From NCBI GenBank assembly GCA_000421325.1, contig ATWQ01000006.1:1-64000 (forward strand): a stretch of 64,000 bases of DNA, read 5' to 3'. The DNA comes from an alpha proteobacterium SCGC AAA536-K22. GTDB taxonomy: Bacteria; Pseudomonadota; Alphaproteobacteria; Puniceispirillales; Marisalimonadaceae. Shown here piece by piece: positions 2,835-13,088 of this stretch. Below the pieces are notes generated by a model. It worked only from the letters and a program-made list of their open reading frames with translations. It did not search any database and was not told the origin of the DNA. Numbering within the stretch: position 1 is the first letter of the stretch; each line of letters opens with the position of its first letter. A program made the translations under genes and the position numbers.

Positions 2835-3173
2835 TTAAAGAGGAATATTTCCAAATTTTTTATCTGGATTAGTTTGTGTTTTATTTTTTAATTTCGAAAA
2901 AGCTTGTATAAGCCGAAATCTAGAATTACTCGGTATAATAACATCATCAAGGAATCCTCTCTCGGCAGCGATAAAAGGATTGGCAAATGTTTCTTCATAA
3001 TCTAAAGTTCTTTTTTGAATTTTTGTTGGATCGTCAAGTTCATCTCTAAATAAAATTTCAACCGCACCTTTAGCGCCCATAACTGCTATTTCTGCAGTTG
3101 GCCAAGCATAATTTGCATCCCCTCTTAAGTGCTTTGAACTCATTACGTCATAGGCACCACCATAAGCTTTTCT
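2835..3173 (-). pseudogene. C-terminal fragment of propionyl-CoA carboxylase beta subunit
   Basis: This is the last 112 codons of pccB (from the [10 protein letters not shown] region to the stop), identical to 43509-43847. The coding frame is cut at 3173, where the inverted repeat ends, so the fragment has no native start. An internal ATG at 3143 opens a 102-codon frame but would not encode a working carboxyltransferase. It overlaps the last codons of the truncated mobAB frame. This is remnant or chimera sequence. Confidence 0.93.
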
Positions 3174-4038
3174 CTTCGTTTTGATCGTTTTCTTGAATTA
3201 GAGCAAACCTCTCTTTAGATGAAATAATCATGGGTCTTGCTCCAGCTTTTCTTAAGTTGTAAGAATCTTTTCCTGGTTTATCTATATCAAATTTGTGATG
3301 AGCATGTTTTAGAGTACCCACATTAATACCAATTTTAGTAAAATTTTTAATTAATTTTGTAGATAAAGTTGTTTTGCCTGATCCAGACCAGCCCGCCAGC
3401 CCAAACAAAGGTGGTAATTTGCCAAGGATTTGTTGTGCAAGGATAAGATCTTGAGGTGAATTCAAATTAGTAAAAGGATCAAAGTCGGAATTTTGTATTT
3501 TATCAAAGTCAACATAAGCAATGTTTAGTTGAGCTGTAAAAATATCTATTTTTCTAACACCTTCATTTAGAGCACTTTGTAATTTTTGATTAATATCTGA
3601 TTTCCATAAAGCTATTACTGGATGATTAAACCCTCTTGATTTTGCAACCACCAAATCAACTTCTGGAGTTTTATTCTTTGCTTCGACCATAGATTGAACT
3701 AGATTCTTAGGAAGAAATGGAGTATCGCACGGTAAAGTCAAAACCCAATCTTGATTTATTTCCTTTGCCCAATTTAATGATGCTAAAATTCCAGCTAAGG
3801 GCCCCAAGTGACCTTTGATAGGATCCTTAATTATCTTGTAACCAAACTTTTGAAAGCTATCAAAATTTGTATTTATATTTAATGCAATAGGTGCAACTTT
3901 GCCTGATACTTTTTCTAAAACATAAGATAAAAGTGGTCTATCCAAAAGATGGATTAAAGCTTTTTCTTTACCACCCATCCTTCTACCTTTGCCTCCTGCT
4001 AAAATGACACACGGTATTATTTCGTTTAATGTTTCCAA
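3148..4038 (-). CDS. mobA: molybdenum cofactor guanylyltransferase MobA fused to MobB, C-terminus truncated
   Basis: Residues 1-about 207 are MobA, which attaches GMP to molybdopterin: nucleotide loop [11 protein letters not shown] near the N-terminus and the PCDTPFL motif. It is followed by a MobB P-loop domain (GWSGSGKTT) and the MobB motif [10 protein letters not shown]. The last 7-8 residues (KSLWWCL) are read out of the inverted repeat after 3173, so MobB loses its end. No ATG is available. I place the start at TTG 4036-4038 because AAGG lies nine bases upstream; TTG 4045-4047 is an alternative three codons earlier. The gene follows fdhD directly, in one leftward operon serving molybdo- or tungsto-enzymes. 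Confidence 0.85.
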
Positions 4039-4050
4039 ATTATTCAACCT

Positions 4051-4929
4051 TCAGTTGATCAAAGACCTTTGTGCAGACACTACGTCTTCATTCGCAACTG
4101 CCTTGATGTCAGTATCAAAATTCACCCTATCTACACCATTTGCAATTATCATCCTCTTACCTTTAGCTCTTCCAATTAATGTAAGACCGGCTTCTCTAGC
4201 AAGTTTAACTCCTGATTCAGTAAAACCTGACCTTGATATTAATATTGGGATTCCCATTTGAACTGTTTTTATGACCATTTCTGAGGTAAGTCTTCCAGTT
4301 GTATAAAAAATTTTATCATTTGCATTTTCTTTATTTAAAAACATCCAACCAGCAATCTTATCTACGGCATTATGTCTACCAACATCTTCAACATAAATTA
4401 GAGGTGAATCTTTTTGGCATAATACGCAACCATGAAGGGCTCCTGCTTTTAAATACAAGCTGGGTCTTGTATTAACTTTTTTTGAAATCGTATAAATCCA
4501 AGAAGTTTTTATTTTTGTTTTTTTATCAAGATTAACTGATGAAAAATCATCCATTATATCTCCATAAACTGTGCCCACTGCACAGCCACTTGTTCTGATT
4601 TTCTTCTCCATTTTTTTTTCATAGTTTGTTTTTCGTTCAGTTCTTACGATTACAACTTGGAGGTCTTCGTCATAATCAATTCCTGAAATGACATCATCTC
4701 TCTTCAGCATATTTTGGTTAAGCAGATAGCCAACTGCTAACAAGTCAGGCATATCACCTAATGTCATGACGGTGACAATTTCTTGTTTGTTAAGATAGAT
4801 TGTTAATGGAATTTCTTTAACGACAGGTAGTCTTATATTTTCACCAGATTCATTTAAACACTCGATTGACTCAGTTAGATTATCATTTTCTAAATTAGGT
4901 GAAATATAAAACTCTTTATTGTTTTCCAT
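4051..4929 (-). CDS. fdhD: formate dehydrogenase accessory sulfurtransferase FdhD
   Basis: FdhD passes sulfur from the cysteine desulfurase to the Mo/W-bis-MGD cofactor of formate dehydrogenase in the cytoplasm. The 292-residue length is normal. Family signatures include ALHGCVLC, VEDVGRHNAVDKI, TTGRLTSEMV and SRSGFTESGVKLAREAGLTL. The catalytic loop reads TSGCAVGTVYGD: Cys116 is kept, but the second cysteine of the E. coli CxxC pair is glycine. The gene sits between a ModE-type regulator and mobAB on the same strand; its stop codon is followed at once by the mobA ribosome-binding region. No formate dehydrogenase structural gene is in the window. Confidence 0.92.
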   Translation of the reverse strand: MENNKEFYISPNLENDNLTESIECLNESGENIRLPVVKEIPLTIYLNKQEIVTVMTLGDMPDLLAVGYLLNQNMLKRDDVISGIDYDEDLQVVIVRTERKTNYEKKMEKKIRTSGCAVGTVYGDIMDDFSSVNLDKKTKIKTSWIYTISKKVNTRPSLYLKAGALHGCVLCQKDSPLIYVEDVGRHNAVDKIAGWMFLNKENANDKIFYTTGRLTSEMVIKTVQMGIPILISRSGFTESGVKLAREAGLTLIGRAKGKRMIIANGVDRVNFDTDIKAVANEDVVSAQRSLIN

Positions 4930-4940
4930 AGTCTTACCTT

Positions 4941-5333
4941 TTATCTAAGAGTTTGTTTGGATGCAGCCCAATTAATGAATTCTTGAGATTCTTTTGACAA
5001 GTGGTCACATAAATTCAAATATTTTTTTAAAAGCTCTTTTCCAAAAGAGGTAATGTGTGTACCTTTATTTCCCAATTTTTTTTCTAAAATAGGTGTTGGG
5101 AATGCTTCTTCTATAGTCTTAAGAAGCAAAGTAGCTCTTCTTGTGCTCATGCCCATTTCTTTTGCTGCAGATCTAATAGAACCTCTATTAGCAACTAAGT
5201 TAAACAGCTCCATTTTCCCAGCGCCAATCATATGACCTTTAATATAAACTTTGATCCTTACACCATTTTCATTTTCATTTACTAGTCTAGGTGGTAAAGA
5301 AGAATTTTTTAAATTTGTAGATCTGTTTTTCAT
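4941..5333 (-). CDS. ModE-type winged-helix regulator, DNA-binding domain only
   Basis: This is a 130-residue protein with the LysR/ModE-like N-terminal helix-turn-helix: ELFNLVANRGSIRSAAKEM (residues about 43-60) followed by GMSTRRATLLLKTIEEAF, and a C-terminal helix. It lacks the MOP/TOBE molybdate-binding domains of full-length ModE, so it cannot sense oxyanion that way. It starts the leftward regulator-fdhD-mobAB operon, ending 11 bases before fdhD, and is divergent from the HTH/PBP regulator at 5393. It is probably a repressor or activator of Mo/W genes; the ligand partner is unknown. Confidence 0.75.
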   Translation of the reverse strand: MKNRSTNLKNSSLPPRLVNENENGVRIKVYIKGHMIGAGKMELFNLVANRGSIRSAAKEMGMSTRRATLLLKTIEEAFPTPILEKKLGNKGTHITSFGKELLKKYLNLCDHLSKESQEFINWAASKQTLR

Positions 5334-5368
5334 TAACTAATTATATAGTATAATGTAAAAATACACTA
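5327..5368. promoter_or_regulatory. candidate divergent promoter/operator between two metal regulators
   Basis: On the + strand a perfect TATAAT lies at 5349-5354, 16 bases after TTTTCA (5327-5332). It overlaps a 7-bp inverted repeat with one mismatch (TAGTATA 5346-5352, TACACTA 5362-5368, nine bases apart). On the - strand TATAAT can be read at 5345-5340, very close to the leftward start at 5333. The arrangement fits cross- or auto-regulation of the two divergent regulator genes. In an AT-rich spacer such matches also arise by chance. Confidence 0.35.
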
Positions 5369-5392
5369 AATATTTATTATGGAAATGAGCTT

Positions 5393-6262
5393 ATGTCTGA
5401 ATACTTTACAACTGATGAATTAGCAGAGTTTCTAAGAATTAAACCAAGAAAAGTTTACGATTTAGTTTCTACAGACAAAGTTCCTTATTCAAGAGTAATG
5501 GGTAAATTATTGTTTTCTAAATCTGAAATATCAAATTGGATTTCTGGTGGAAAAAATAATAAATCTACTCAAAAAAATCTACCAAATATAATATTAGGAA
5601 GTCATGACCCTCTTCTAGAATTAGCAGTCAAACAGTCAAAATCTGGGATTGCAATGTCATTTGATGGAAGTACTGAAGGATTACACAGATTTAAACTTAA
5701 TCAGGGTATAGCGTCAGGGCTTCATATTTATGATAGTGATTTGGAATCTTGGAATGTTCCAATAGTAAAAAAATGTCTAGAAAAACAAGATTTTGTTTTA
5801 ATGGAATGGGCCAAAAGAGATAGAGGTTTAATCTATAAACCAAAAGAAAAAAGTGAAAAGAAATCTATAAATGAATTCTTAGGTCAGAGACTTGTTACTA
5901 GACAAAGTGGATCTGGATCAGATAATTATTTCAGATATATATGTAAAAGAGAAAATATTAATTCCTCTGATTTTATTGGTACTGAAGTCACTTACTCCGA
6001 AAACGACGCTGTTTCACTTATTTTATCAAACAATGCAGATGTAACTCTTGGTCTTGCATCTGAGGCTAAAAAGCATCAGTTGGGATTTGTTCATATTGCT
6101 ACTGAAAGATTTGATATTGTTGTAAATAGAATTTCTTGGTTTGAAAAACCTTTTCAAAGACTTTTGAGTTTTTCTAGATCTGACGATTTTTTAAATACTG
6201 CTTCAAATTTTTTTGGTTATAATATTAATGATTTAGGAACAGTACATTTCAATAATAAATAG
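5393..6262 (+). CDS. HTH (excisionase-type) regulator with periplasmic-binding-protein-like sensor domain
   Basis: This is a 289-residue protein. Residues 5-50 form a MerR/excisionase-type winged helix (FTTDELAEFLRIKPRKVY, ending SKSEISNWI). The rest resembles a cytosolic PBP-like domain, with SHDPLLELA, FDGSTEGLHRF, QGIASGLHIY, RQSGSGSDNYF and a C-terminal lobe with DVTLGLASEAK. Such HTH-PBP proteins are typically tied to molybdate/tungstate or related small-ligand control. No signal peptide is present, so it is cytoplasmic. It is divergent from the ModE-type gene and in the same region as fdhD, mobAB and tupABC, which supports metal-oxyanion sensing as an inference. Confidence 0.8.
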   Translation: MSEYFTTDELAEFLRIKPRKVYDLVSTDKVPYSRVMGKLLFSKSEISNWISGGKNNKSTQKNLPNIILGSHDPLLELAVKQSKSGIAMSFDGSTEGLHRFKLNQGIASGLHIYDSDLESWNVPIVKKCLEKQDFVLMEWAKRDRGLIYKPKEKSEKKSINEFLGQRLVTRQSGSGSDNYFRYICKRENINSSDFIGTEVTYSENDAVSLILSNNADVTLGLASEAKKHQLGFVHIATERFDIVVNRISWFEKPFQRLLSFSRSDDFLNTASNFFGYNINDLGTVHFNNK

Positions 6263-6270
6263 GCAAAAAA

Positions 6271-6375
6271 ATGTTTAAAGAAATTGGTAAGGGGTTGTTA
6301 GGTGTTGCAATAATACTCATTCTATTTTTTTTCTTTTTAGGGGCCAAAACATTTATTTTCACTTCTTTAGTTTAA
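6271..6375 (+). CDS. 34-residue single-span membrane peptide
   Basis: This short frame begins with ATG eight bases after the regulator stop, preceded by AGGC, and ends TAA. The translation starts MFKEIGKGLLGVAIILI, continues through a phenylalanine-rich hydrophobic run and ends FIFTSLV. It has a charged N-terminus followed by one membrane span of about 20 residues, typical of small inner-membrane proteins. It probably shares the transcript of the HTH-PBP gene. No homologue is recognised, and chance cannot be excluded for a frame this short. Confidence 0.45.
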   Translation: MFKEIGKGLLGVAIILILFFFFLGAKTFIFTSLV

Positions 6376-6390
6376 GTTGTTAAACTATTG

Positions 6391-7278
6391 ATGAAAATTT
6401 TAAAAGTAATTAGCCTACAAAATAAGAAAATCAAATTAGATGTTTTACCTGAAATTGGTGGAAGAATAAGTAGTTTAATTTGTGACGATTTTCATGTTTT
6501 ACGTCCAATACCTCTCCATGATCTAAAGTCTATTCATTTGTTTAAAGGTGGGAGTTTCCCATTAGCTCCATTTTCTAATAGAATTAAAAATGCAAAATTT
6601 AAATTTAATGGATTGGAATACAATTTAAATCAAAATGCTTTTCCTCATGCAATTCATGGTCATGGATACTTAAGTGAATGGAGCATTATAGAACAATCAA
6701 ATTCTTCTGTTATTTTAATTTATCGACATGAAGCAGATAAATTCGGTTGGCCTTGGTCATATGAAATAACTCAATCAATTTATTTGACTGCTTTCTCATG
6801 CAAAATTGAACTAAAACTTGTGAATAATTCAAAAAACATTATGCCTTTTGGATTTGGAATACACCCATTTTTCAATTTTAATGATGCGGTTAAATTAAGA
6901 TTGAATGCTTCAAGGGAATGGGAAGGACAACCTGAAGATTTTCCAACTAAAACTAAGCCTATAGAAAATAACTTTAATTTTAGAAATGGAAAAGCATTGT
7001 GGAATAATGAAAAGACAGTGTGTTATGAGAATTTCAGTGGAAAGGTTCAAATTATTTGGCCTAATAAAAAGAAAAAAATCACAATGAAAGTGGACAAAAT
7101 TTTCAATCATTTAATTGTGCATGTTCCAAAAAGAGAGGAATATTTTTGTATTGAGCCAGTAAGCCATCCAACTGACGGCTTTAACTTAATACACGGAAAA
7201 AAAGAAAATATAGATTGTAAGTATCTGGAACCAAATGAATACATAAGTGGTTTGATAGAGTTAGATATAGAACAATAG
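6391..7278 (+). CDS. aldose 1-epimerase (mutarotase) family protein
   Basis: The protein has 295 residues if it starts at the ATG at 6391; an in-frame TTG precedes it directly. It has galactose-mutarotase fold hallmarks: GGSFPLAPFSNRI near the N-terminus, HAIHGHGYLSEW (catalytic-type His), FGFGIHPFF (second His) and CIEPVSHPTDGFN (general-base Glu region). It would interconvert anomers of a free sugar. The next genes are a lactonase and polyol/aldonate dehydrogenases, which places it at the start of an oxidative sugar route. Its 3' end converges on the lactonase gene with only three bases between stops. Confidence 0.85.
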   Translation: MKILKVISLQNKKIKLDVLPEIGGRISSLICDDFHVLRPIPLHDLKSIHLFKGGSFPLAPFSNRIKNAKFKFNGLEYNLNQNAFPHAIHGHGYLSEWSIIEQSNSSVILIYRHEADKFGWPWSYEITQSIYLTAFSCKIELKLVNNSKNIMPFGFGIHPFFNFNDAVKLRLNASREWEGQPEDFPTKTKPIENNFNFRNGKALWNNEKTVCYENFSGKVQIIWPNKKKKITMKVDKIFNHLIVHVPKREEYFCIEPVSHPTDGFNLIHGKKENIDCKYLEPNEYISGLIELDIEQ

Positions 7279-10286: not shown

Positions 10287-10760
10287 ATGATTGATGGTAT
10301 TGATAAGAAAATTTTAACTATAATTCAGAAGAATGCTGGTTTACCTTTGTCAGAAATTTCCAAAAGGGTGGGAATTTCTTCCACGCCTTGTTGGAACAGG
10401 ATAAAAAAAATGGAAGAGGGTGGGATAATTTCAGCTAGAACTATCGTTCTTAACAGAAAAGCAATAAATTTATCTGTAGTAGTTTTTTTATCTATTAGGG
10501 TTAGTCACCAATCAAGGGACTGGATTTCAAGTTTTCAAAAAGTTATTGATAAGCACGAAGAAATTATTGAAACACATAGGTTAACTGGGTCAGACTCAGA
10601 TTATTTATTAAAAATTGTTGCTTCTAGCATTGAGGATTATGATAATTTTCAGCAGAAGTTGATTGGAGAACTTGAATTTACAAAAATGTCTTCGAGTATA
10701 TCTCTTCAAGAAATGAAAAATTCTCATAACTTACCCTTAAAACAGCTTGAAAACTTTTAA
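10287..10760 (+). CDS. Lrp/AsnC family transcriptional regulator
   Basis: The protein has 157 residues from the ATG at 10287. It has an N-terminal winged helix (IDKKILTIIQKNAGLPLSEISKRVGISSTPCWNRIKKM, split over residues 4-41) and a C-terminal RAM-type effector domain with the GSDSDYLLKIV motif. An in-frame TTG at 10257 would add ten residues; no clear ribosome site decides, but the family normally starts a few residues before IDKKIL. It follows the SDR gene and may control the sugar-acid genes or amino-acid catabolism. Its 3' end overlaps that of tupA (convergent). Confidence 0.88.
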   Translation: MIDGIDKKILTIIQKNAGLPLSEISKRVGISSTPCWNRIKKMEEGGIISARTIVLNRKAINLSVVVFLSIRVSHQSRDWISSFQKVIDKHEEIIETHRLTGSDSDYLLKIVASSIEDYDNFQQKLIGELEFTKMSSSISLQEMKNSHNLPLKQLENF

Positions 10761-11564
10761 CTTGCGTTAGGAAAAAAAAGTTGTTTTCCTTTCAATTTAA
10801 AGTTTTCAATAATTTTTTGTCCTCTTTTTGATAATAGCCAACTAATAAATTTATTGGCGTTTTTAAATTTTACATTTGGACAACTTGATGGGTTAACCAT
10901 CGTAATCCCATATTGATTAAATAACGTTTTATTTTTTTCAGCTATAATACGTAAGTTATTTTTATTGTTAAAATTAATCCATGATGCTCTGTCACTTAAT
11001 GTATAAGCACCCATACCACTTGCTAAATTAAGAGTTGTTCCCATCCCAGAACCTGTTTCTCTGTACCATTTTCCGGAGAATTTAATTGGCTTTAATTTAG
11101 CTTTGTCCCATATACTTATTTCTTTAAAGTGGGTTCCAGAGTCATCGCCTCTTGATATAAAAATTGAGGATGTGGTAAAAATTTTTGTAAAAGATGTAAT
11201 AGGGTCATCAGTTAAATTTATTTTAGCAGGATTTTCTTTTGGTCCAACTATGATGAAATCATTATACATTAAATTGTATCTCTTAAGGCCAAATCCATTT
11301 TTAACAAATTTCAACTCTCTTTTTTTTTGCATGTACTATTAGTACGTCTCCGTCACAATTAGCTGCATTTTTCAGTGCAGCGCCAGTGCCAACTGATACA
11401 ACATGAGCAACTACATTTATCTCTGATTTAATAATTGGGAGTATGTACTCATAGAATCCAGAGTTATAGGTTGAAGTTGTTGACTGAACTATTAATGAGT
11501 TGTCCCCTGAGCATATCCTTGGAAATAATAAAAACAAGAGAATAAATAGATTTAGTCTAAACAT
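10757..11564 (-). pseudogene. tupA: tungstate-type ABC transporter substrate-binding protein, split by +1 frameshift
   Basis: Two overlapping frames together make a TupA-family binding protein. The first (11301-11564) has a signal peptide (MFRLNLFILLFLLFPRICSG), then SLIVQSTTSTYNSGFYEYILP and GDVLIVHAKKK. The second (10757-11332) has ELKFVKNGFGLKRYNLMYNDFIIVGP, ISRGDDSGTH, WYRETGSGMG and YTLSDRASW. They join at a run of nine T (11320-11328; A on the coding strand). Eight would restore one 268-residue frame. It supplies the oxyanion to TupBC, encoded divergently. The extra base may be sequencing error, a real mutation or a slippage site. Confidence 0.9.
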
Positions 11565-11590
11565 ATTTTGCCTAACTAATATAACGTAAA

Positions 11591-11627
11591 AATTGCAATT
11601 ATTGTAATTTTCACATAATATTGCAAT
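11591..11627. promoter_or_regulatory. repeated ATTGCAAT-type motifs in the tupA/tupB divergent spacer
   Basis: The 89-bp spacer contains a perfect 10-bp palindrome AATTGCAATT (11591-11600), directly followed by ATTGTAAT (11601-11608), and a second ATTGCAAT at 11620-11627. Closely spaced copies of a palindromic word between divergent transporter genes look like a regulator operator. The ModE-type or HTH-PBP regulator 6 kb away is a candidate. This is inferred from pattern only. Confidence 0.4.
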
Positions 11628-11653
11628 TTAAAACATAATAAATCAATAATAAT

Positions 11654-12361
11654 ATGAATATTTTACTAGAAGCATTTGCGAAATCATTTGAGTTAGTTTT
11701 TACTCTTAATGAGGATTTATTTGAAATATTACTACTTTCTTTAAAAGTGAGCGGTATTTCATTACTTCTTTCTTGTTTAATTGGTTTGCCATTAGGAACT
11801 TTTTTAGCCATTAAAAGTTTTTGGGGTAAGGACGCATTTTTAGTTCTATTTAATACTATGATGGGGTTACCACCAGTTGTTGTTGGATTAATTGTTTATT
11901 TACTAGTTTCAAGGTCTGGGCCATTTGGCTGGCTGGGCATTTTATATACTCCAACTGCAATGATAATCGCTCAGATGATATTAATAACTCCAATTATAGT
12001 TTCGTTAACCTCTCAAATAATAGAAGAAATTAGTCAAGAATATAAGTCTCTTTTTGCTTCTCTGGTGGTACCATCTCATAAAGCGATCATAGCGTATCTT
12101 TTTGATGCTAGATATTCGATACTTACAGTAGTCTTAGCCGGATTTGGTAGAGCTATATCAGAAGTTGGAGCTGTTATAATTGTAGGTGGAAATATTGATC
12201 ACTTAACAAGGGTTATGACGACAACAATAGCATTAGAAACTTCTAAAGGTAATTTGTCTCTAGCATTAGCTTTGGGAATTATTCTTCTATCAATTGCATT
12301 AACTACAAACTTTATTTTAATTCGTCTAAAGATTAGGGCGAAAAGAAGAATGTATGTATAA
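11654..12361 (+). CDS. tupB: tungstate-type ABC transporter permease
   Basis: This is a 235-residue inner-membrane protein with about five or six hydrophobic spans and the BPD_transp_1 EAA-like loop (SLVVPSHKAIIAYLFDARYS, then VVLAGFGRAISEVGAVIIVGG). GFGRAISEVGA is typical of tungstate/anion importer permeases. It overlaps tupC by eight bases, indicating translational coupling. tupA lies on the opposite strand just upstream, an unusual split of the usual tupABC order. The importer would deliver tungstate or molybdate for the bis-MGD cofactor. Confidence 0.88.
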   Translation: MNILLEAFAKSFELVFTLNEDLFEILLLSLKVSGISLLLSCLIGLPLGTFLAIKSFWGKDAFLVLFNTMMGLPPVVVGLIVYLLVSRSGPFGWLGILYTPTAMIIAQMILITPIIVSLTSQIIEEISQEYKSLFASLVVPSHKAIIAYLFDARYSILTVVLAGFGRAISEVGAVIIVGGNIDHLTRVMTTTIALETSKGNLSLALALGIILLSIALTTNFILIRLKIRAKRRMYV

Positions 12362-13088
12362 ATCTAACAAAAAAAACTTAATGAAATTAACCCCCATTGA
12401 AGTTATTGATCTATCAGTTTTATTAGGAAAAGATCTAATTCTAGACAAAGTTAGTTGTAGCATTAAAAATAATTCTATTACTGCAGTAATTGGACCAAAC
12501 GGTGCAGGCAAAAGTATATTTTTACAGACCATAAATGGATTAACAAATATAGATAATGGGAAAATAACGTTTAACAAAATATATAACAATGATGAAATTA
12601 GAAATAAGCAAGCAATGGTTTTTCAAACTCCAACTTTGTTAAGAAGAAATGTAAAATCCAATATGGATTTTGTTTCTAATGTTAAAAATAAAAATGGTAA
12701 ATTAATTATTAAAAATATTTTAAAAAGAGTTGGATTAGAGGGATATGATAATAAACCTGCACGCTTACTTTCTGGAGGAGAAAAACAAAGACTTTCTCTA
12801 GCAAGAGCTTTATTAATTGAGCCATCAGTTCTTCTACTTGACGAGCCCACTGCAAATTTAGACCCATTTTCATTGAAATTAATAGAAGAAATTATTCTAG
12901 AGGAGAGTAAAAAAGGGGCTACAATTATACTTACTACACATGATATGGCTCAAGCTAAGAGACTAGCATCTGATATAATTTTTTTTAATAAGGGTAAAAT
13001 ACTAGAGCAAACAGATGCAAATGCATTTTTTAGAAATCCTTTAACTAAAGAGGCAAAAAAATATATTAATGGAGAAATTCTTTTATAA
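12354..13088 (+). CDS. tupC: tungstate-type ABC transporter ATP-binding protein
   Basis: This is a 244-residue ABC ATPase: Walker A GPNGAGKS (47-54), Q-loop VFQTPTLL, signature LSGGEKQR, Walker B LLLDEPTANLD and switch His in TTHDMAQAKRLA. There is no C-terminal TOBE/MOP domain, as in TupC and unlike ModC. The start overlaps the end of tupB; an alternative internal ATG at 12381 would shorten it by nine residues. It energises TupB. Its 3' end faces the M20 gene with three bases between stops. Confidence 0.88.
   Translation: MYKSNKKNLMKLTPIEVIDLSVLLGKDLILDKVSCSIKNNSITAVIGPNGAGKSIFLQTINGLTNIDNGKITFNKIYNNDEIRNKQAMVFQTPTLLRRNVKSNMDFVSNVKNKNGKLIIKNILKRVGLEGYDNKPARLLSGGEKQRLSLARALLIEPSVLLLDEPTANLDPFSLKLIEEIILEESKKGATIILTTHDMAQAKRLASDIIFFNKGKILEQTDANAFFRNPLTKEAKKYINGEILL

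Follow-up and report, generated by a model that had tools for sequence, protein, structure and literature searches.

The stretch of DNA analysed here, hereafter the window, comprises 64,000 nucleotides of contig ATWQ01000006.1 of the alpha proteobacterium SCGC AAA536-K22. It carries two divergent regulatory genes separated by 59 bases (5334-5392, ORF check): modeN, whose product (ModE-N) contains a predicted ModE-type DNA-binding domain only (HTH_1 and ModE_repress matches, no TOBE), and a taoR-like gene, whose product combines an excisionase-type HTH with a PBP-like domain (HTH_17 and PBP_like matches). The first-pass annotation had described these ORFs with the same strands, gap and domain content, and a 34-residue membrane peptide after the sensor gene; all these points are confirmed (Table 1).

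Table 1. Positions of the features of the modeN/taoR locus and of the tup genes in the window.
Feature	Position	Strand	Remarks
mobAB fusion	3148..4047	-	299 aa, C-terminally truncated in the window; 377 aa in G018
fdhD (formate dehydrogenase accessory sulfurtransferase)	4051..4929	-	directly downstream of modeN
modeN (ModE-N)	4941..5333	-	single-domain ModE-type winged-helix protein, 130 aa, without TOBE/molbindin domain (Pfam/NCBIfam, PDB profile match)
divergent promoter region	5334..5392	.	59 bases, kept across SAR116 loci
predicted -10 box of modeN (TATAAT, minus strand)	5340..5345	-	6 bases from the ATG; arm exact in 26/27 loci
predicted -10 box of taoR (TATAAT)	5349..5354	+	with TTTTCA at 5327-5332 as -35; 38 bases before the taoR ATG
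conserved block AAAATACACTAAATATTTATTATGG	5358..5382	.	may serve as an operator or as the upstream portion of modeN's promoter
taoR-like gene	5393..6262	+	289 aa; excisionase-type HTH at residues 4-52, PBP_like sensor at residues 76-260
membrane peptide gene	6271..6375	+	34 aa; kept beside modeN with or without taoR
tupA (tungstate-binding protein)	10757..11564	-	two frames in the window (broken)
tupA/tupB divergent promoter	11565..11653	.	
candidate regulator site CGTAAAAATTGCAA	11585-11598	.	12.7 bits, tupA/tupB promoter
candidate regulator site ACATAATATTGCAA	11613-11626	.	8.1 bits, tupA/tupB promoter
tupB (tungstate ABC permease)	11654..12361	+	TupB model 187 bits, under the cut-off of 320
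tupC (ATPase)	12354..13088	+	name from position

The nearest named relatives of the HTH-PBP gene (among the best 80 of 433 relatives) are records of the SAR116 cluster, and the window probably belongs to a SAR116 alphaproteobacterium. SAR116 bacteria are common in surface sea water. The genus set comprises 37 genomes, the window's own included (G000, 79.8% complete); many of them are 52-90% complete. In G018 the gene order is: TorD/NarJ-type chaperone, fdhA, fdhB, cytochrome b, WD40, trypsin-like, moeA, 2OG-Fe(II) oxygenase, mobAB, fdhD, then modeN/taoR (divergent), peptide, adh, sdr, lrp, tupA/tupB (divergent) and tupC, some of these names being given by position.

The two tupA frames of the window overlap near a T-run at about 11320-11328, and a single continuous match is found in the 6 fetched clade regions with tupA; the split is either a sequencing error or a broken gene. 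At 2835-3148, the C-terminal 102 aa of a carboxyltransferase abut the cut C-terminus of mobAB, and the clade genomes fetched at that place have a full mobAB, then moeA. This junction has the look of a rearrangement or of a chimeric join in the contig. The gene of the formate dehydrogenase alpha subunit was not found in the window's own assembly (79.8% complete; best match at 25% identity), despite the presence of fdhD, mobAB, taoR and tup.

ModE-N matches HTH_1 (5.5e-7) and ModE_repress TIGR00637 (6.1e-12, 45.5 bits, i.e., under the cut-off of 98.5). A profile of eight ModE-N proteins finds its best PDB match in 2ijl (8.6e-27), a chain of 135 residues that bears the name 'Molybdenum-binding transcriptional repressor', followed by E. 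coli ModE (1o7l/1b9m, 3.5e-9). By this profile match, 2ijl resembles ModE-N as a single-domain ModE of the same size, and a ModE of such size is thus already among the solved structures. E. coli ModE would, by the same match, have this kind of winged-helix DNA-binding domain, but ModE-N lacks the TOBE sensor domain (130 aa vs. about 262). No TOBE domain was found in ModE-N, nor in the window's own assembly at its 79.8% completeness, which agrees with the earlier statement that the ModE present here has no oxyanion domain. Likewise, the 37 genomes of the genus, some of which are incomplete, yielded no molbindin and no ModE with a TOBE domain; the one weak TOBE match in each of G009, G028 and G031 falls in frames of 365-408 aa, presumed to encode ABC ATPases.

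In the taoR-like protein, HTH_17 (1.1e-9, 38.8 bits) and PBP_like (PF12727; 4.5e-40, 137.3 bits) are both above their cut-off of 27, while TIGR01764 excise (1e-5, 25.8 bits) is under its cut-off of 28.8. There is also a match between the PBP part and the last portion of a MoeA-type model (NF011068, positions 420-643 of 647). A structure model built from 45 sequences has a mean pLDDT of 89.4. The fold matches of the PBP part (about residues 64-284) are: (i) the phosphate-binding protein 4gd5 (Z 16.2, rmsd 3.2, 201 aligned); (ii) ModA with tungstate, 1wod (Z 16.1, rmsd 3.3, 206 aligned); (iii) the CatM effector domain 2f7c (Z 15.9, rmsd 3.0, 192 aligned); (iv) WtpA with tungstate, 3cg3 (Z 15.6, rmsd 3.2, 216 aligned). 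Oxyanion-binding proteins and LysR effector domains are tied within 1 Z, and the fold search does not decide on the ligand; the modelled fold permits an oxyanion ligand without proving it.

The abstract of Rajeev et al. 2019 (Environ Microbiol 21:784) on TaoR reportedly describes an excisionase-related DNA-binding domain. An HTH plus PBP-like architecture, also that of the window protein, is the one given for TaoR, a tungstate/molybdate regulator, in the available text of PMC11980592, and the same TaoR work is cited for tupR, a regulator of tungstate uptake, in the available text of PMC10102598. The HTH-PBP gene is here assigned to the TaoR type by domain architecture and genomic association, TaoR being known from descriptions. 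As in the TaoR family, it lies near tungstate transport genes, in SAR116 also near formate dehydrogenase genes. It differs in that taoR of the genus is divergent from a ModE-N gene and lies about 2.5-10 kb from tup instead of adjoining it. It must be noted that taoR of G022 (L009/L102) has in-frame stops near its C-terminus.

To evaluate the genomic association, an alignment of seven sequences was run against the species genomes in a pattern-based scan, and of 433 relatives the best 80 were kept, i.e., 26 from SAR116 and 54 others, and neighbours were looked for on fetched DNA of up to 10 kb each side (many contigs being shorter), a tup match requiring 38% identity or more. Among the 54 non-SAR116 loci, tupA, tupB or tupC is found in 46, an fdhA match in 5 (4 at 65% or more, 1 at 24% identity), fdhD in none and a ModE-N match in 1; outside SAR116 the link is therefore with tup and not with the FDH genes. 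The 26 SAR116 loci have ModE-N in 26, fdhD in 25, tup in 19 and fdhA in 15. Three plasmid records were opened of 26 matching, with annotations that leave the transporters unnamed. In Sagittula sp. P11, the HTH-PBP gene comes after an ABC permease/ATPase/substrate-binding set and has a formate dehydrogenase operon next to it; the record of Ruegeria TM1040 has it at its start, behind a substrate-binding gene; the Mesorhizobium INR15 gene (29% identity) lies beside molybdopterin genes and is divergent from an ABC permease/ATPase/substrate-binding set. The moeA1-mobB-tupBCA cluster of Methylorubrum extorquens is comparable, as it associates W uptake, MoeA, MobB and FdhD for a W formate dehydrogenase, but the gene order is different and no regulator pair similar to TaoR/ModE-N is named in the available text (PMC13197769). 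Literature searches, with subscription papers mostly outside their reach, gave no paper recognised as dealing with the TaoR/ModE-N pair.

In the genus, taoR is present in 25 genomes, ModE-N in 29 and FdhD in 26. Both taoR and FdhD are found in 25 genomes, FdhD alone in 1 (G005, whose contig ends just behind fdhD), neither in 11 and taoR alone in none; since these genes lie in one cluster and many genomes are 52-90% complete, the genomes are not independent events and the absences are uncertain. In 25/25 taoR-bearing genomes the pair is divergent on a single contig. A close tupB occurs in 22/25 taoR genomes (the contig ends first in G002, G014 and G020) and, near a contig end, in one of the 11 FdhD-less genomes (G013). 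The co-occurrence survey with fdhD, mobAB and tup proposed at first thus comes out in favour of a Mo/W role: the HTH-PBP gene is co-conserved with all of them, and every one of the 25 taoR genomes has fdhD. ModE-N is present in 25/26 FdhD genomes (not in G005) vs. 4/11 of the others; therefore it too tracks FdhD, less strictly.

It might be argued that the ligand sensed by the PBP domain is a different one (phosphate, formate or a cofactor intermediate), the link with tup and FDH being incidental. The first rank of phosphate-binding 4gd5, although tied with 1wod and 2f7c, and the match to the MoeA-type model would agree with this. Against it are the tungstate transporter neighbourhood in 46 of the 54 loci, the joint absence with the transporter in the genus and the relative cited as a regulator of tungstate uptake (available text of PMC10102598), and such a ligand appears quite unlikely.

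The pairing of taoR and ModE-N was searched in a total of 61 genomes, and the two are separable. ModE-N without detected TaoR occurs in 12 of them, i.e., G007, G010, G015 and G024 in the genus and G041, G044, G045, G048, G050, G055, G057 and G060 in the order (frames of 121-140 aa); TaoR without detected ModE-N occurs in 2, both at the order level (G037, on one contig, and G058). In G053, TaoR and a ModE-N-like gene are 123 kb apart, the latter being doubtful (28% identity, no NCBIfam match). The counts leave out G052 (HTH-only match) and G040, as well as weak second matches in G016 and G034 (LysR-sized frames, 297-318 aa). Of the 8 genomes of the order in which ModE-N was detected and TaoR was not, 6 have a tupA-like gene (46-59% identity) beside or near ModE-N; each protein thus seems to serve alone elsewhere, and ModE-N itself may be a regulator linked to tungstate or FDH. 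Of these stretches with ModE-N and a tupA-like gene and without detected TaoR (L117, L118, L120-L123), several also carry formate dehydrogenase genes.

These results bear on the idea, put forward in the first-pass annotation, that the HTH-PBP protein is the sensor that ModE lacks here. The absence of a sensor in ModE-N and the Mo/W context stand; the two-protein replacement is not supported, the halves being separable. According to that idea, ModE-N would bind DNA, TaoR would sense the metal, and both would act jointly on shared operators as the equivalent of a full-length ModE. In its favour are the lack of any TOBE-bearing ModE or molbindin found in the genus, the divergent pair kept in all 25 taoR-bearing genus genomes, the distribution of ModE-N with fdhD (25/26 vs. 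4/11) and the change of modeN in G010 (see below), though that change may stem from the loss of target genes instead. But TaoR has its own HTH, and a ModE-N match is missing from the fetched DNA of 53/54 TaoR loci outside SAR116. The occurrence of TaoR and ModE-N apart from each other makes it improbable that they are the two halves of a single ModE. The proposal of a divided ModE is thus unlikely and probably wrong.

The genomes with ModE-N and without taoR in the genus belong to two separate lineages on a midpoint-rooted tree built from the genes of this locus: G010 is inside the window's clade, as sister of G001 (support 0.913), and G007, G015 and G024 form a separate clade. All four keep moeA, mobAB, modeN and the peptide, fdhD and taoR are missing from their places, and the search for a close tupB gave none. 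G010 further lacks the tup genes at their place between sdr and the amidohydrolase; its three gaps (fdhD, taoR, tupABC) fall in a span of about 9 kb where synteny is otherwise kept (L108, 7022-18000), and the loss is clear. For G007, G015 and G024, whose tup place is outside the fetched DNA, a loss is likely, not proven.

ModE-N of G010 is only 62% identical to that of its clade (59-66, n=7) vs. 91% within the clade (84-95, n=21; 7 genomes, G022 not included), while its neighbours moeA, mobAB, adh, sdr, smp30, galM and amidohydrolase have means of 89-98% in the same comparison. In the ModE-N tree, G010 still groups close to the lineage of the window, on a branch of 0.57. Such a divergence would follow alike from relaxed constraint, from target genes having been lost or from the absence of a former TaoR partner. 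Together with the absence of ModE-N from 7/11 fdhD-less genomes, this divergence suggests a coupling beyond simple neighbourhood. G010 is thereby a natural experiment on a single-domain ModE without tungstate transporter, fdhD and TaoR. A parallel change of ModE-N in the taoR-less genomes was looked for and rejected: just 2 columns set G010, together with two or more of G007, G015 and G024, apart from all 18 aligned TaoR-bearing genomes, vs. 31 states found in G010 only. In G007, G015 and G024, ModE-N is at 58-61% and moeA at a mean of 64%; therefore no special acceleration is claimed there.

The strong divergence in G010 and the fact that ModE-N was not found in 8/37 genus genomes would also fit a ModE-N that is an unimportant leftover of a ModE after loss of its sensor, the conserved intergenic region being the taoR promoter only. 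This is very unlikely, given that the frame is open in 22/22 genus genomes aligned with 91% mean identity within the window's clade, that the minus-strand TATAAT arm is exact in 26/27 loci and that a 135-residue relative (2ijl) has a solved structure.

The inverted repeat on a TATAAT noted earlier in the gap is present, as ATTATA-TAG-TATAAT (5340-5345 / 5349-5354, i.e., ATTATA-n3-TATAAT). When this stretch (83% AT) is shuffled with its dinucleotides preserved, a repeat with 6-base arms turns up in 44% of the shuffles for a gap of 0-10 and in 6.7% for a gap of exactly 3; promoter-like matches in 4900-6420 number 8 vs. 7.3 expected from shuffles. The repeat alone is unremarkable, and what exceeds chance is its conservation. 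Both arms are exact in 26/27 SAR116 loci (19/20 distinct sequences), the spacer of 3 bases has four forms across these loci, and the plus-strand TATAAT is present in 27/27 taoR-bearing loci. Compared with four diverged members of the genus, the 59-base gap is 71-80% identical (42-47 of 59 columns) vs. 41-51% for the fourfold-degenerate sites of both genes pooled. In G010, which has no taoR, the plus-strand TATAAT is changed, the minus-strand box is TATCAT and the block AAAATAAACTAAATATTTTTTAT is kept. The conserved dyad coincides with the two -10-like boxes, and it is best read as two putative back-to-back -10 boxes rather than as a shared operator. No obvious ribosome-binding site precedes the modeN ATG, and the modeN message would be leaderless.

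The 25-base block at 5358..5382 was also considered as a regulon-wide element, by an ungapped search with at most 3 mismatches in 37 genomes (23 of the genus and 14 of the order), and this was rejected. The locus itself is recovered in 5/37 only, so the rarity of the block elsewhere holds for the window's clade; the pattern misses the shorter form of other SAR116 clades and thus says little beyond that clade. Outside the locus, one other sequence was found (the same one, with 3 mismatches, in G022 and G010), vs. 2 matches for the reversed control.

A candidate site was obtained at the tup promoters. Training on 40 upstream regions of tupB from outside SAR116 gave the 14-base motif cGnAAATTaTGCA (of the 41 regions extracted from the 54 loci, L159 was dropped because its upstream is coding). 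It is the second-best width-14 solution by likelihood (414.8 vs. 469.6 for ctGcAAAtTTTgCa) and was chosen as more site-like. At the tup promoter of the window p is 0.007 on 120 bases and 0.020 on 89 bases, but the 64-kb window contains 16 sites of 10.5 bits or more. The motif is significant (p of 0.02 or less) at 10/25 tup promoters, i.e., 22 of the genus (including G013, without detected taoR) and 3 of TaoR-bearing order members, L065 (G035, tupB at the contig edge) being left out; it is significant at 0/4 tup promoters of order members without TaoR. As a regulator site it is a lead only. In the modeN/taoR gap the motif reaches 2.8 bits only, and an operator shared by both proteins was not retained on this basis.

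The reading preferred here, with a probability of about 58%, is that of a TaoR-type regulator of tungstate uptake and formate dehydrogenase and a separate ModE-N, joined by overlapping promoters in FDH-bearing SAR116. Points that weigh against it are the tied fold matches, the lack of fdhD and the few fdhA matches at the 54 loci outside SAR116, the significance of the tup motif at 10/25 promoters only, the FDH alpha gene not found in the window's own assembly (79.8% complete) and the signs of a closer coupling of ModE-N. TaoR would be a one-component regulator of tungstate uptake and of a formate dehydrogenase branch dependent on tungsten/molybdenum. Cytoplasmic tungstate (or molybdate) is the probable ligand of its PBP domain, and its excisionase-type HTH would then control tup and the FDH-branch genes. 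ModE-N would be a separate single-domain protein of the moeA-mobAB (Moco) cluster, without a metal sensor of its own. In FDH-bearing SAR116, modeN and taoR would be joined via overlapping back-to-back promoters. As the predicted -10 boxes are 3 bases apart (both within 15 bases), RNA polymerase would occupy one promoter at a time; at any given moment only one of modeN and taoR would be transcribed, and ModE-N levels may be set by the metal state of TaoR. This 59-base promoter would thus offer both a candidate metal input and a candidate output for a sensor-less ModE. The joint presence or absence of the tungstate transporter, the formate dehydrogenase genes and the TaoR-type regulator suggests that some SAR116 use tungsten or switch metals.

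A stronger version, according to which TaoR/ModE-N is a tungsten-vs-molybdenum switch where ModE-N depends on TaoR or its regulon, the interdependent pair substituting for a full-length ModE, is doubtful. If it were true, two one-component regulators would have evolved into an interdependent pair, and the 62% vs. 91% identity of G010 would mean that ModE-N changes fast once taoR, fdhD and tup are gone.

The 34-aa membrane peptide (MFKEIGKGLLG...FFFFLG...) has no Pfam match and was not seen in the 13 order-level regions looked at. In the genus it is behind taoR in 23/23 genomes checked (25 have taoR). It follows the sensor gene, as noted at first, but is not tied to it: the peptide stays next to modeN in 4/4 regions without taoR. 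The peptide is tied to modeN rather than to taoR.
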